Of a DNA stretch of 64,000 nucleotides, positions 38,802-52,562 are shown one piece after another. The notes beneath the pieces were generated by a model. The model searched no databases and was not told the DNA's origin. It worked only from the letters and a program-made list of their open reading frames with translations. Each line of letters starts with the position of its first letter. Within the stretch, counting starts at the first letter, position 1. The position numbers and the translations under genes were made by a program. Origin of the DNA: Ptiloglossa arizonensis (taxonomy: Eukaryota; Arthropoda; Insecta; Hymenoptera; Colletidae); NCBI RefSeq assembly GCF_051014685.1, contig NC_135059.1, positions 4,774,001-4,838,000 of the forward strand. Reading direction: 5' to 3'.

Positions 38802-38806
38802 ATACT
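38802..38806. repeat. Target-site duplication, left
   Basis: atact directly abuts the LTR end and is repeated at the other end of the element. An extra a before it also matches if the LTR boundary is moved by one base, so the duplication is 5 or 6 bp. This length is typical of Ty3/Gypsy-like integrases. Confidence 0.75.
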
Positions 38807-38872
38807 TTGGCGGCGCTAAATTAAAGTATGTGAGGAAGGAGCGAACGGAAATAGGAAAAGGAAGTGGGGATA

Positions 38873-38941
38873 AGCGTTTCATCCCGGGCCTGCTAGTGGA
38901 CTCGTCAGTAAGGCATCCTAGCAGGCCCTGCCTTATACGCC
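38873..38941 (-). ncRNA. Type III hammerhead self-cleaving ribozyme (3' LTR copy)
   Basis: Read on the minus strand. Stem III pairs GGCGU (38941-38937) with ACGCU (38877-38873), closing with one G-U pair, and is the open stem. The cleavage triplet is GUA, cutting after A at 38936. Stem I pairs UAAGGCA (38935-38929) with UGCCUUA (38915-38909), 7 of 7. The first core strand is CUGACGA (38908-38902), a CUGANGA match. Stem II pairs GUCC (38901-38898) with GGAU (38884-38881), with a G-U pair next to the core. The second core strand is GAAA (38880-38877). All invariant core bases are present. Loop I (GGGCCUGCUAGGA) and loop II (ACUAGCAGGCCCG) share an 11-nt complement, which could give the tertiary loop contact natural hammerheads need. 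The arrangement, with stem III open, matches retrozyme and viroid-like hammerheads. Activity is inferred. Confidence 0.87.
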
Positions 38942-38969
38942 GGGACATTGGAAGATCGGTAAGAGGTCG

Positions 38970-38977
38970 TATATATA
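38970..38977 (-). promoter_or_regulatory. TATA box in the 3' LTR
   Basis: Same TATATATA element as in the other LTR. If active, it would drive transcription out of the element towards lower coordinates, with a start near 38947. Transcripts from here would lose only a short leader to the adjacent ribozyme. Confidence 0.5.
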
Positions 38978-39064
38978 GCGATCGGAGCAGGTACGGGAAC
39001 TTGCGGGAAACGGTAGGTGGTGAGTTTCCCTCTGGTGGCAAGCGTGGGTAGTGCCGCCACATAA

Positions 39065-39071
39065 CCCCCTT
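39065..39071 (-). other. Short polypurine tract
   Basis: The minus strand reads AAGGGGG, then TTA, then the 3' LTR (its first base T is at 39061). This is the expected place for the plus-strand primer. It is short but distinctive in its surroundings. Confidence 0.5.
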
Positions 39072-39558
39072 GCCAGTGGTAAACGATACTTTGAAGTTCC
39101 GTCCTGATGTCCCAGTGGCGTAGGTATTTGTTCCGTAGTTCGGTTTGGCACAACAGGCACAGGAGGAGGTTGTCCAGAGCGGTGGAAGAGAAGAATGCTT
39201 TTCTTTTTCGTAGTAAGGCCCAGCTGCTGTCGATTGCGGAATACGCGTGGCGAGCATCGTTTGCTCAAGCCGCGTTTTCGCTTGTTGTCCGACGTTGATG
39301 CGTGCGCGTACCAGTATTTATGAAACGCATCGGTGTGGTCGGTGAATAATGTCGACAAGCTGCCTGCTGTCCTCCTGGGGTTGATCCTGATGGTTAGCCG
39401 GGAGTATAGCGTTCGTGTCGTCGCTGGCAGGTCGAGGAGTCAACCCTCGGAGAGGGGGATTTACGAAAAATCGGCCTTTACGTTGCGTTCCTTCCATCGT
39501 CTTGTGCTGCACCTGTACTGCTGCTGTGCTGTTGTCCAGAAGGTTGCGTGTTGCTAGA

Positions 39559-39569
39559 CGGGGTCACCA
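39559..39569 (-). other. Primer-binding site, tRNA-Trp type
   Basis: The minus strand reads TGGTGACCCCG, starting 2 nt after the 5' LTR. Eukaryotic tRNA-Trp ends in a CGGGGUCA acceptor arm plus CCA, so 11 consecutive bases match. The next bases diverge. An 11-nt match at exactly the expected place supports LTR-type minus-strand priming. The tRNA identity comes from remembered tRNA-Trp consensus sequence and is not a search result. Confidence 0.65.
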
Positions 39570-39637
39570 CTTTGGCGGCGCTAAATTAAAGTATGTGAGG
39601 AAGGAGCGAACGGAAATAGGAAAAGGAAGTGGGGATA

Positions 39638-39706
39638 AGCGTTTCATCCCGGGCCTGCTAGTGGACTCGTCAGTAAGGCATCCTAGCAGGCCCTGCCTTA
39701 TACGCC
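39638..39706 (-). ncRNA. Type III hammerhead self-cleaving ribozyme (5' LTR copy)
   Basis: Identical to the copy in the 3' LTR, shifted by 765 bp. Cleavage is predicted between 39701 and 39700 on the minus strand. Cleavage here and at 38936/38935 would release a 765-nt RNA with 5'-hydroxyl and 2',3'-cyclic phosphate ends, the form that is ligated into circles in known retrozymes. Because the ribozyme lies just downstream of the TATA box, it should sit at the very 5' end of the transcript. Confidence 0.87.
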
Positions 39707-39734
39707 GGGACATTGGAAGATCGGTAAGAGGTCG

Positions 39735-39742
39735 TATATATA
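39735..39742 (-). promoter_or_regulatory. TATA box in the 5' LTR, just upstream of the ribozyme
   Basis: The minus strand reads TATATATA. About 30 nt downstream, the usual TATA-to-start distance, gives initiation near 39712, only about 11 nt before the predicted cleavage site. The TATA core is retained in both older relics (around 40663-40670 and 52439-52448), which supports function. I see no strong initiator match. Confidence 0.6.
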
Positions 39743-39826
39743 GCGATCGGAGCAGGTACGGGAACTTGCGGGAAACGGTAGGTGGTGAGTTTCCCTCTGG
39801 TGGCAAGCGTGGGTAGTGCCGCCACA

Positions 39827-39831
39827 ATACT
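39827..39831. repeat. Target-site duplication, right
   Basis: atact, identical to the left flank. Intact duplications at both ends show that this is an original insertion and not a recombination product between two elements. Confidence 0.75.
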
Positions 39832-40560: not shown

Positions 40561-40806
40561 GTTTCCCGCCTAGTTGACTAGACTGTTGACTACTCGACAA
40601 CGCGCCTAGTTGACTAGATCGCGCCTAGTTGACTAGACTGTTTCCCGTACCAGCTGCGATCGATATATATACGATTCTTACCGATCTCCTAATATCCTGT
40701 ATAAGGCAGGGCCTGCTAGGATGCCTTACCGATGATAAATCCACTAGCAAGCACTAAATGAAACGCTCTCGCTTCCTTCTGCTATCTTCATTACCTATCG
40801 CCACAA
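40561..40806 (+). mobile_element. Degenerate solo LTR of the retrozyme family, with ribozyme relic
   Basis: Clearly related to the 38.8-kb LTR but read on the plus strand. It shares the tttcccg/cccgtacc region, the TATATATA box, cttaccgatct, the stem I hairpin and gatgaaacgct. Stem I (40702-40708 with 40722-40728) and loop I are unchanged. The core reads CCGATGA at 40729-40735 in place of CUGANGA, so the invariant U is lost. Stem II is broken, and GAAA remains at 40760-40763. Three 16-bp units (cgcctagttgactaga at 40567, 40603 and 40622) interrupt the upstream part. No partner LTR is visible nearby, so I read it as a solo LTR. The left boundary is uncertain. Confidence 0.78.
40567..40637. repeat. 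Three-copy 16-bp repeat inside the relic LTR
   Basis: cgcctagttgactaga occurs at 40567-40582, 40603-40618 and 40622-40637, with gttgactactcgacaa between the first two. The block sits where the intact LTR has a short segment between two ttcccg motifs. It therefore looks like a local expansion or a small insertion in the U3 region. Confidence 0.85.
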
Positions 40807-42689
40807 TTCTTTCGAGAATATTGCACGACGTACTGTGTGTAAATGCTCTACCGTGACTGACCGTAGAATACGAAACACAGATATTGAACAAACAAACAGC
40901 GATAAATAACGAACCGTTCGTCATCGTCGAATAAGAGCCAGTATCGGTCGAGTAGAAAAACGAGTCCGTAGAAAACTAGGAGGCTAGACTTCGTGCAAAA
41001 TCGCATTATCCCGAAGATGTTCCGATTTCCCCGGGATTGGTTCTCGTTCCACGAAATATTTCCGCGTCCACGCCCACCCCGAGGCGTTCGCCCAGATCGC
41101 GAAATATTCCAGGAGTTATGTGTACCTTTCGGTTCGCTGGGCAGGACTGCAATTCCCTTAACGCGCTCCTCGACCATGGGTGTGCACAAGAGGGGTCGAG
41201 GGTGAGGGTGTGGAAACGAGCCAACAAAGAGGTGTTTTCTCCGTACGGTCCGCGCGCCATAAGACAATAAACGCCCCCTTTCAGGCGTTACCGCCACTGT
41301 CCAAACTTCTCGCGCATGCGCGCGCTGGAATAAAATTTTCGCGATCCTCCCGAAGAAGACCGCGTTCATATTCCTTCTTAATTATTTTTGCCCGCGAAGA
41401 GATCGTTTGCGACAAGATACCGCGCCATACGTTTCGGTCGGGAAGCTTAAGGGACATCGACGTAGATTGTGCTCAGACCGCAGCCATTTCCCGGAAGTCG
41501 TGGGCGCTTGCCACACGTGCTAGTACGTAATATCCTTCCGGTAAAAGGGACGCTCGGTGTTTCGATAACGAGCCGCGCATCGTTGCACCGACGTTGCTGC
41601 GCGAAACGAGCCCGCCGGACTTGTTTTCCACGACGATCCTCGCGAGGACTTCCCGATCCTCCATCGAGAGGATGGAGACACCGCGCCACGATCCGATACC
41701 AATTGTTTTCGATCCCCCTTGTTCCTCTTCGCGAATATCGTTATCGTTTCGTCGCGAAATTGCCGCGCTCTTTTTCGATGCGCTTCCCCTTACCACGGTG
41801 AAAACGTGTCGCAACACGGATAAAATTTCCCCGATCCTGTAACGAAGAAATTTTCTTGTTCCGGAGATAATCGATGTAGCGCGGAAACATTAACCTTCCG
41901 AGCTGAGTTGCGCTCGCGATGATTAATTTATTGCTTCGGCAAAATTTTTCCCACTTGGAGAGGAGAGAACATTTCGCTACACCGAGAGAACATTTACCGA
42001 ACAGAAGTAATCGATGTTCCGTGGAAAGATCACTTTCGCGACGTAGTGAATTACGATTGAGACGATCGACTTATTTATCGAGAAGAATTTTTTTTATTCC
42101 GGCGAGGGTGATTATTCGAACGCCAGATAACGAGACATTAAAATATTACCAAGCTGTACGTGTGTATAACGTCACTTGTCCCCTTGTCGGTGAAGAAATT
42201 CTTTGAAACTATCTTCGAATTCTTTCACCGAAATGTCGTTTATCATCGAGTGGAGTTTGCCCCGCGGAAATTCCTCGCTTATGGTAATTTACGACGGATA
42301 AACCGCGAGCTTCGCGACCGCGACGATCGACCATCGCCGTATAAGGTTTTCCACGAATCTTCGCAAATCGTTGACCCCGTTTCTCGTCCCAAGGTCCCCC
42401 CGTCGCGTTTTATTTAACAAAGTAAGGCTCCTTACCGGGCCTGGTTCACCCTCGAGAAATGTCTCACCTAATCCGCGACGCAGCGCATCGACTTTCTTTC
42501 GTCCATTACTTTTATCGACCACTTTCGCCCCGAGACTTGTTCCCAAGTTTTGCGTCGGCGTTCAGAGCTTTTTGTCGGCACGAAGATTCTTCGAGAATAC
42601 GAAATTACGCCGATTTCTTTTAACGAAGCGCTATTCGTTACCAGGTCCCATTTACCCTCCGCTTCGTCGAACAGAGGGAAAACGCGGAG

Positions 42690-52367: not shown

Positions 52368-52562
52368 GCACTTACCACACTTGTCACCAGAGGAAAACTG
52401 ACAATTTCCCGCAAGTTTTCGTAACTGCTCCGATTGGTGTATATATATAAGACAGGATCTGCTAAAATATCCTACTGATAAGTTCATTAGCAAGCTGGAG
52501 ATGAAACACTGTTCCTTCCTTTTCTTATCCTTTAACTGCTTCACTTTACATCAGCGCGCCAA
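52368..52562 (+). mobile_element. Older solo-LTR relic of the retrozyme family
   Basis: Alignable over most of its length to the young LTR in the plus orientation. It begins gcacttaccacacttgtcac, then has ccagagg, tttcccgcaagtt, ctgctccgat, a TATA run (52439-52448), the ribozyme region and gcgcgccaaa at the end. The ribozyme core is CTGATAA at 52475-52481, where the invariant G is changed to A, and GAAA is at 52503-52506. Stem I keeps 5 of 7 pairs and the spacing after the TATA box is shortened. No second LTR, PBS or PPT is visible next to it. It is non-functional and older than the 40.6-kb relic. Confidence 0.72.

Follow-up and report, generated by a model that had tools for sequence, protein, structure and literature searches.

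The analysed stretch of DNA, hereafter the window, comprises 64,000 nucleotides of the genome of the colletid hymenopteran Ptiloglossa arizonensis (NC_135059.1, positions 4,774,001 to 4,838,000) and contains a small element bounded by long terminal repeats (LTRs), each of which includes a hammerhead ribozyme motif (Table 1). That this is an LTR element carrying a hammerhead motif is near certain. Repeat comparison confirmed that the two direct repeats are identical, as an earlier note made from the letters of the window had stated, while its 255-bp repeats and 5-bp atact duplication were corrected to 256-bp LTRs and a 4-bp target site duplication (TSD), ATAC. The correction was obtained from related copies in the genome: among 38 units whose two ends are both preserved (a count that includes duplicated loci), 36 repeat the four bases ahead of TGTGG immediately behind CCAAA, and the 5-bp reading fits 15 of these 38. 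The primer binding site (PBS) TGGTGACCCCG starts one base into the internal region and the polypurine tract (PPT) AAGGGGGTTA closes it, so that their placement on the minus strand, also part of that note, was verified. With a length of 1,021 bp and open reading frames (ORFs) that lack Pfam matches, the element has the size and gene content of a terminal-repeat retrotransposon in miniature (TRIM), slightly exceeding the limit of 1,000 bp given in PMC3532108.

Within each LTR, positions 122–188 present, in order, GCGUA, a 7-bp stem I, CUGACGA, stem II and GAAACGC, with GUA as the cleavage site. Both hammerheads hold every core base (C3, U4, G5, A6, N7, G8, A9, G12, A13, A14 and the A15.1-U16.1 pair, in what we take to be the standard position numbering) and three paired stems, stem III being the open one, as in type III. 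The previously described full core, three stems and GUA site in both repeats on one strand were therefore found again, and the length of 765 nt predicted for the unit between the cleavage sites was reproduced by computation. The two loops are 13 nt long and share a perfect complementarity of 11 nt. Among 31 aligned distinct sequences, the stem II pair 10.1-11.1 is G-U in 26, A-U in 4 and G-C in 1. A pattern combining the core and stem II matched twice in the window and in none of 100 shuffles, and the full type III descriptor matched twice, once per LTR, compared with none in 300 simulated windows of equal size searched on both strands; on these counts a chance motif was rejected. A working ribozyme is likely, and self-cleavage is predicted.

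Table 1. Coordinates of the element, its parts and related features in the window (the sense strand of the element is the minus strand).
Feature	Position	Strand	Remark
Whole element, 1,021 bp	38806..39826	minus	From direct repeats; same boundaries in 36/38 intact units
5' LTR, 256 bp	39571..39826	minus	TGTGG...CCAAA
3' LTR, 256 bp	38806..39061	minus	Identical to 5' LTR
Internal region	39062..39570	minus	
4-bp TSD, element's 5' side	39827..39830		ATAC on plus
4-bp TSD, element's 3' side	38802..38805		ATAC on plus
TATA of 5' LTR	39735..39742	minus	TATATATA; LTR 85-92
Type III hammerhead, 5' LTR	39639..39705	minus	LTR 122-188; cut expected between 39701 and 39700
Type III hammerhead, 3' LTR	38874..38940	minus	Cut expected between 38936 and 38935
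Predicted 765-nt unit between cleavage sites	38936..39700	minus	Linear or circular RNA; computed from sequence
U5-side segment, 5' LTR	39571..39638	minus	LTR 189-256; hypervariable among copies, often unlike that of the 3' LTR
U5-side segment, 3' LTR	38806..38873	minus	
PBS	39559..39569	minus	TGGTGACCCCG; match to tRNA-Trp 3' end
Second 16-nt block	39537..39552	minus	AACACGCAACCTTCTG; complementary to tRNA-Trp
PPT	39062..39071	minus	AAGGGGGTTA; ahead of 3' LTR
ATG ORF including flank, 152 aa	38799-39257	minus	
Older LTR relative	40642..40785	plus	80% identical; spans ribozyme; altered core CCGATGATAAATCC
Still older LTR relative	52368..52528	plus	76% and 72% identical in two pieces

The 999-Mb genome (2,016 contigs) was searched for related copies. 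The whole-element query gave 45 matches, with the best 40 of 900 candidates scored; the internal sequence was used likewise (best 40 of 281), as were older LTR copies (best 40 of 1,018 and best 40 of 805). The LTR/PBS junction was found at 282 sites within 3 mismatches, compared with 2 sites for the reversed pattern. The search of its own genome, proposed in the earlier note, returned a multi-copy family with solo, dimeric and tandem forms. Together with the window, 38 further stretches provided 40 units, of which 36 have two LTRs and four have three; one of the 36 (L047) is a tandem running off the contig end. At least six arrays with a spacing of about 760 bp were observed among 100 junctions listed of the 282. 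Two scans of viral contigs for copies returned none, and a degenerate-pattern match in a Heimdallarchaeota metagenome-assembled contig, from a search of prokaryote genomes, was taken as a chance match.

Conservation within the family is uneven. Among the 54 distinct of 84 LTRs, positions 86–188 contain no variable column, while positions 199–247 differ at 14.5% per site, and the core CTGACGA is present in 74 of 74 LTRs from 35 units of the whole-element search; as the 40-unit set was ordered by resemblance to the element of the window, it favours young copies by design. In 15 elements chosen by internal sequence (30 loci minus 13 duplicates and 2 incomplete), divergence from the window amounts to 1.1% in the ribozyme, 1.3% in LTR 86–121, 2.2% in LTR 1–85, 5.5% in the internal region and 12.5% in U5. 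The ribozyme thus appears to be kept above the internal region and U5, together with the promoter. The earlier note had named a core not conserved above the LTR background as refuting its interpretation; conservation above that background was found relative to the internal region and U5, and the adjoining promoter region is about as conserved as the ribozyme.

The elements required for priming are also maintained. In 49 two-LTR insertions that were fully cuttable, the PBS part TGGTGACCCCGTCTA is kept in all 49 and the final 22 bases of the internal region, which include the PPT end, are identical in 47. Of the 40 units, 30 contributed, after removal of the 4 with three LTRs and of 6 that were truncated or duplicate; the other insertions are 19 of 35 further loci (30 from the internal query and 5 of 30 from the older-LTR query, with 2 incomplete loci and 14 duplicates dropped). 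Both the PBS and a second block were matched to what we take to be the tRNA-Trp sequence. At 39537-39569 (minus), the complementary stretches of 11 and 16 nt are separated by a short loop; all 16 nt of the second block are present in 17 of 49 insertions and its 13-nt part ACGCAACCTTCTG in 46, and it possibly represents an extended primer contact beyond the PBS.

A second feature of the family is the relation between the two LTRs of single insertions. A perfect 4-bp TSD was observed in 45 of the 49 insertions. In these 45, the LTRs are identical in 15 and U5 differs in 29; moreover, 18 show at least three U5 differences and none in LTR 1–188, which covers U3 and the ribozyme. Summed over the 45 insertions, the LTR pairs differ at 256 positions in U5, 19 in U3 and 10 in the ribozyme, and 11 of the 29 upstream differences fall in one old element (L076). 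Polymorphisms of U3 are concordant within LTR pairs, with 3 discordant cases compared with 28.8 expected under random pairing, whereas those of U5 are discordant in 203 cases against 437 expected, about half. In the first 30 insertions, discordance is low at LTR 201–208 (3 vs about 15), near random at 232–237 (9 vs 9.6 at 237) and lower again at 242–243 (4 vs 12.2 and 2 vs 7.1); there is no simple gradient of U5 discordance toward the PBS, which is a weaker point. The pattern of two U5 sequences per insertion is solid within this sample of best-matching copies.

In the ordinary LTR pathway, one U5 is copied into both LTRs. That pathway does not give the observed signature because it makes both U5 segments identical, and ageing was rejected because it would affect all three regions (U3, ribozyme and U5) equally. 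The signature suggests that a second RNA supplies one of the two U5 segments, which a circular template, or one trimmed by the ribozyme, could require; it does not prove a circle.

Taken together, the element is probably an LTR retrozyme in an insect: an LTR retrotransposon of TRIM size that is non-autonomous and has a type III hammerhead encoded in its LTRs. It would be primed by tRNA-Trp, be mobilised by Ty3/gypsy machinery and receive U5 from a second template. The identification of an LTR-type retrozyme in an insect, first proposed in the earlier note, is supported by the plant-like anatomy, the multi-copy family and the conserved ribozyme. From the TATA at LTR 85–92, the transcript start is predicted at about LTR 115, so that RNA polymerase II (Pol II) would start about 10 nt ahead of the ribozyme. 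Cleavage after GUA by both ribozymes would release a 765-nt RNA that has lost the terminal repeats (R) and could be ligated to a circle, and this predicted circle is, on balance, the favoured template. The 11-nt loop complementarity may form the loop–loop pseudoknot of the active fold, or a hairpin that shuts the ribozyme off. Priming by tRNA-Trp would occur at the PBS, and a Ty3/gypsy reverse transcriptase and integrase would act in trans, as the PBS, PPT and 4-bp TSD indicate; the mobilising element is probably a tRNA-Trp-primed Ty3/gypsy element. For plant retrozymes, the authors of PMC4918200 resolve the missing R at first strand transfer by invoking a circle.

Reverse transcriptase travelling round a circle would run into a U5 that it had itself degraded, and would have to switch template; with a trimmed RNA that lacks R, a second template would be needed when the cDNA regains the PBS. 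A second RNA whose 5' end falls inside the ribozyme, or at the predicted start near LTR 115, would provide U5 but no U3, and as a consequence the LTRs would agree in U3 and ribozyme and differ in U5. A more tentative proposal, to which we give somewhat less than even credence, is that genome sequence alone reveals how an R-less, ribozyme-cut RNA regenerates its LTRs: one round would be made on a circular or self-trimmed template, the element's own U5 would be found degraded at the PBS, and synthesis would finish on a second RNA ending at the ribozyme. One LTR would then receive a foreign U5, LTR pairs would be non-identical at birth, and LTR dating would fail for the class.

Several observations weigh against the retrozyme interpretation, concerning the core, the tandem copies, the coding capacity, the template and the fold. 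Regarding the core, a U4C variant (CCGACGA) was observed in both LTRs of L102, of L074/L075 (one element) and of L067, where it occupies four LTR pieces, as well as in many older LTRs. In the set chosen by internal sequence, U4C is present in 2 of 30 LTRs, one further LTR has CTGACAA (G8A), and the incomplete L079 also carries C4; the set from the best 40 of 1,018 in the older-LTR search is biased toward C4, as its query carries C4. The literature consulted gave no measured activity for U4C; impairment is expected because the A6-N7 phosphate contacts U4 (PMC3088659). Since U4C elements inserted, elements with a probably weakened ribozyme also moved; either some activity would be retained or such RNAs would have moved in trans, and the recurrence of U4C speaks against a perfect core being indispensable in every case.

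Other old copies show further changes. In the relative at 52368-52528, the 5' strand of stem III is lost, the core reads CTGATAA and one loop pair is changed on both sides. Through internal deletions, the old LTR copies L108 and L109 have lost most of the ribozyme, with stem I and loop 1. The sequence CTACGAA (count 8) was dropped from the core counts, as it is also present in the window's internal region and was taken as an internal match.

Regarding the tandem copies, the four three-LTR units sit in a short AACGTAT satellite, where recombination could have made them. L019, L025, L044 and L045, and also L013, L032 and L042, lie in this satellite, and all three-LTR units of the first sample are among them; it appears to be a preferred site of insertion or recombination. 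Two other arrangements were observed. Twelve loci (L080, L081, L083-L089, L091, L092 and L100) share the duplication AACT and the next flank bases, and probably represent one insertion amplified within a larger repeated segment. In L067 (1311-1691), an older LTR carries a full element inserted at TTCT within its U5, and two LTR fragments ending at LTR 187 precede the full element; this reflects either a nested insertion or recurrent events at a single site.

Regarding coding capacity, a sense ATG ORF running from the 3' end of the internal region into the 3' LTR encodes 116 aa in 18 of 34 units, 106 aa in five, 141–150 aa in three (150 in the window) and 35–43 aa in eight; it is open over at least 106 aa in 26 of the 34. 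This partly shared ORF may be coding. A Pfam search with three ORFs of the element gave no match at E<=1, and no ORF above 150 aa was found on the sense strand of 38 units. We tentatively read the ORF as non-coding; the earlier statement of no coding capacity is qualified by the ORF of 106–150 aa in most units and of 35–43 aa in the remainder.

The template is also subject to an alternative, as a pair of linear RNAs packaged together, with the PBS read through, could give a similar U5 signature. This would suit an ordinary hymenopteran TRIM whose hammerhead is perhaps active but unused for mobility, with R-bearing Pol II transcripts reverse-transcribed normally and the ribozyme trimming or removing some of them. 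TRIMs are known in Hymenoptera (PbTRIM, PMC3532108; Helenus, PMC10886601), U4C copies have moved, and LTR 86–121 is about as conserved as the ribozyme. We nevertheless consider this explanation unlikely: the core is invariant in the LTRs of the young set, a ribozyme beside the predicted start in each LTR would cut every folding transcript, and the normal pathway yields identical U5 segments, yet those of 29 of the 45 TSD-perfect insertions differ.

The U5 mismatches could also have arisen after insertion, by gene conversion or ectopic recombination and not by reverse transcription. The family is large, internal segments look like mosaics of subfamilies, and a number of copies are located in satellites and segmental duplications, all of which would favour such exchange. 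Conversion has no reason to spare U3, however, and the concordance of U3 sites is not shared by U5. Furthermore, outside the AACGTAT satellite there are 36 insertions, 21 of them with different U5 segments, and 12 of the 18 insertions with at least three U5 differences and none upstream are found there. An origin by conversion or recombination is quite improbable, and the preferred explanation remains a U5 supplied by a second template during reverse transcription.

The remaining observations concern the fold. Predicted minimum free energy favours a long hairpin, at -30.3 compared with -12.2 kcal/mol for the nested hammerhead with the pseudoknot uncounted, and this hairpin, formed from the same letters, excludes the hammerhead fold. 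In the Rfam scan of the window nothing reached the gathering score; Hammerhead_3 scored 22.8 bits (E 0.2, cut-off 48.5) and was called in one of the two LTR copies, which are identical, so that the covariance-model check proposed earlier gave a hit and was only weakly passed. In four older loci, Hammerhead_3 had no hit at E<=1, and a genome scan with RF00008 gave 0 matches, as did 14 control genomes, hence it is uninformative. The 13-nt loops with 11-nt complementarity probably lower the score of the model, and Rfam does not carry the hammerhead claim as main proof. Double changes were observed in 7 of 26 pairs, a number reached by 2 of 500 shuffles: two in stem I, one in stem II, one in stem III and three among the 11 loop–loop pairs. 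Partners slid by one column also give six double-change pairs, though only 33% of cells are then paired, and since this is nearly as many, covariation is usable as support only. A ribozyme masked by a complementary stretch is reported for plant retrozyme circles (PMC4918200).

It could thus be argued that the letters form no ribozyme at all, but a long promoter-proximal hairpin (GGGCCUGCUAG/CUAGCAGGCCC) for packaging, dimerisation or as a protein site, with a coincidental hammerhead core, as the 18 kcal/mol advantage, the weak Rfam score and the loop pairs with double changes, which fit hairpin and pseudoknot alike, would allow; this is very improbable given the catalytic bases and three stems in order, absent from 300 simulated windows, the older copy L049, which keeps a CTGATGA core with the same stems, the double changes in stems I, II and III, and the loop pseudoknots predicted in about 40% of the hammerheads of PMC3088659.

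Outside the element, 20 long ORFs of the window gave no Pfam match. A weak snoU61-like match at 41837-41905 (plus; 21.2 bits, cut-off 55) is probably due to chance. The ratio of observed to expected CpG in the window is strongly raised (1.71), and a high ratio points to Hymenoptera.

If the retrozyme interpretation is correct, LTR retrozymes of the plant type also occur outside plants, and the combination of ribozyme and LTR has either crossed between kingdoms or originated twice. The family would also supply, from an animal, circular RNA of unit length whose type III hammerhead has a pseudoknot, akin to that of insect agents resembling hepatitis delta virus (HDV). The many fresh copies make it testable how LTRs are rebuilt from an R-less RNA, an open point of the retrozyme papers, and the U5/U3 concordance test is simple and applicable to plant retrozymes and ordinary TRIMs.

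Animal retrozymes have been described as non-LTR elements with type I ribozymes (PMC7229834, PMC7761336, PMC11722881). A literature search by titles and abstract starts, with most subscription papers and preprints outside its coverage, returned no animal LTR retrozyme. The idea of one in insects is not wholly new, because the 2020 review PMC7761336 suggests that LTR retrozymes could have been seeded by elements with type III hammerheads and includes insects among the organisms that have them; it also hints at unpublished insect type III elements. Metazoan non-LTR retrozymes are likewise non-autonomous, hammerhead-bearing and tandem, and circular RNA, expected here, was observed there; they are described with type I hammerheads in tandem repeats of about 170–400 nt, without LTR, PBS or PPT (PMC7229834). 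The element, in contrast, has LTRs, PBS, PPT and a type III fold.

Penelope-like elements and Terminons are coding elements not known to have a tRNA PBS or PPT, and their hammerheads are of the minimal type I. Like the present element, they are animal retroelements with hammerheads in terminal repeats (named in PMC7229834; see also PMC11167929). The type III fold and the absence of both long sense ORFs and Pfam matches separate the element from them. Among short hymenopteran LTR elements, PbTRIM of the harvester ant is also gene-less with a 4-bp TSD; compared by description and not by sequence, it has LTRs of 152–184 bp and a tRNA-Leu PBS, and the text consulted mentions no ribozyme (PMC3532108). 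Helenus comprises short gene-less LTR families with 4-bp TSDs in animals, some of those in Hymenoptera with a tRNA-Trp PBS, which is also used by Gypsy-32_NVi (PMC10886601). As to a tRNA-like LTR promoter of the Helenus type, ARAGORN found no tRNA in the window, a degenerate A/B box being unscanned. Type III hammerheads of insects and HDV-like agents show Watson–Crick pairing between loops 1 and 2 as well, and are reported as isolated genomic motifs or HDV-like circles, not as LTR elements (PMC7936874, PMC3088659); the search for atypical long-helix hammerheads described in PMC7936874 reports none in hymenopterans.

The closest correspondence was found with plant LTR retrozymes. In Jatropha, a type III hammerhead lies in each of the two LTRs, a PBS, a PPT and a 4-bp TSD are present, and the ribozyme-to-ribozyme unit measures 697–776 bp, compared with 765 here (PMC4918200); solo and tandem forms are likewise shared, and in Nicotiana NbRZ1 a promoter was shown in the LTR (PMC12029980). 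The differences lie in the primer (tRNA-Met in the described plant elements, tRNA-Trp-type here), the animal host, the shorter LTRs (about 330–350 bp in plants) and the GC content (above 55% in plants, PMC7229834; 53.7% in the present unit). Loops of type III hammerheads are usually 6–8 and 4 nt (PMC7936874), in contrast to the 13-nt, largely complementary loops observed here, and the hypervariable U5 with mismatched LTRs is a feature of the element. Overall, the element shares most of the defining features of LTR retrozymes that could be examined and, to judge from these features, appears to work like a plant LTR retrozyme.

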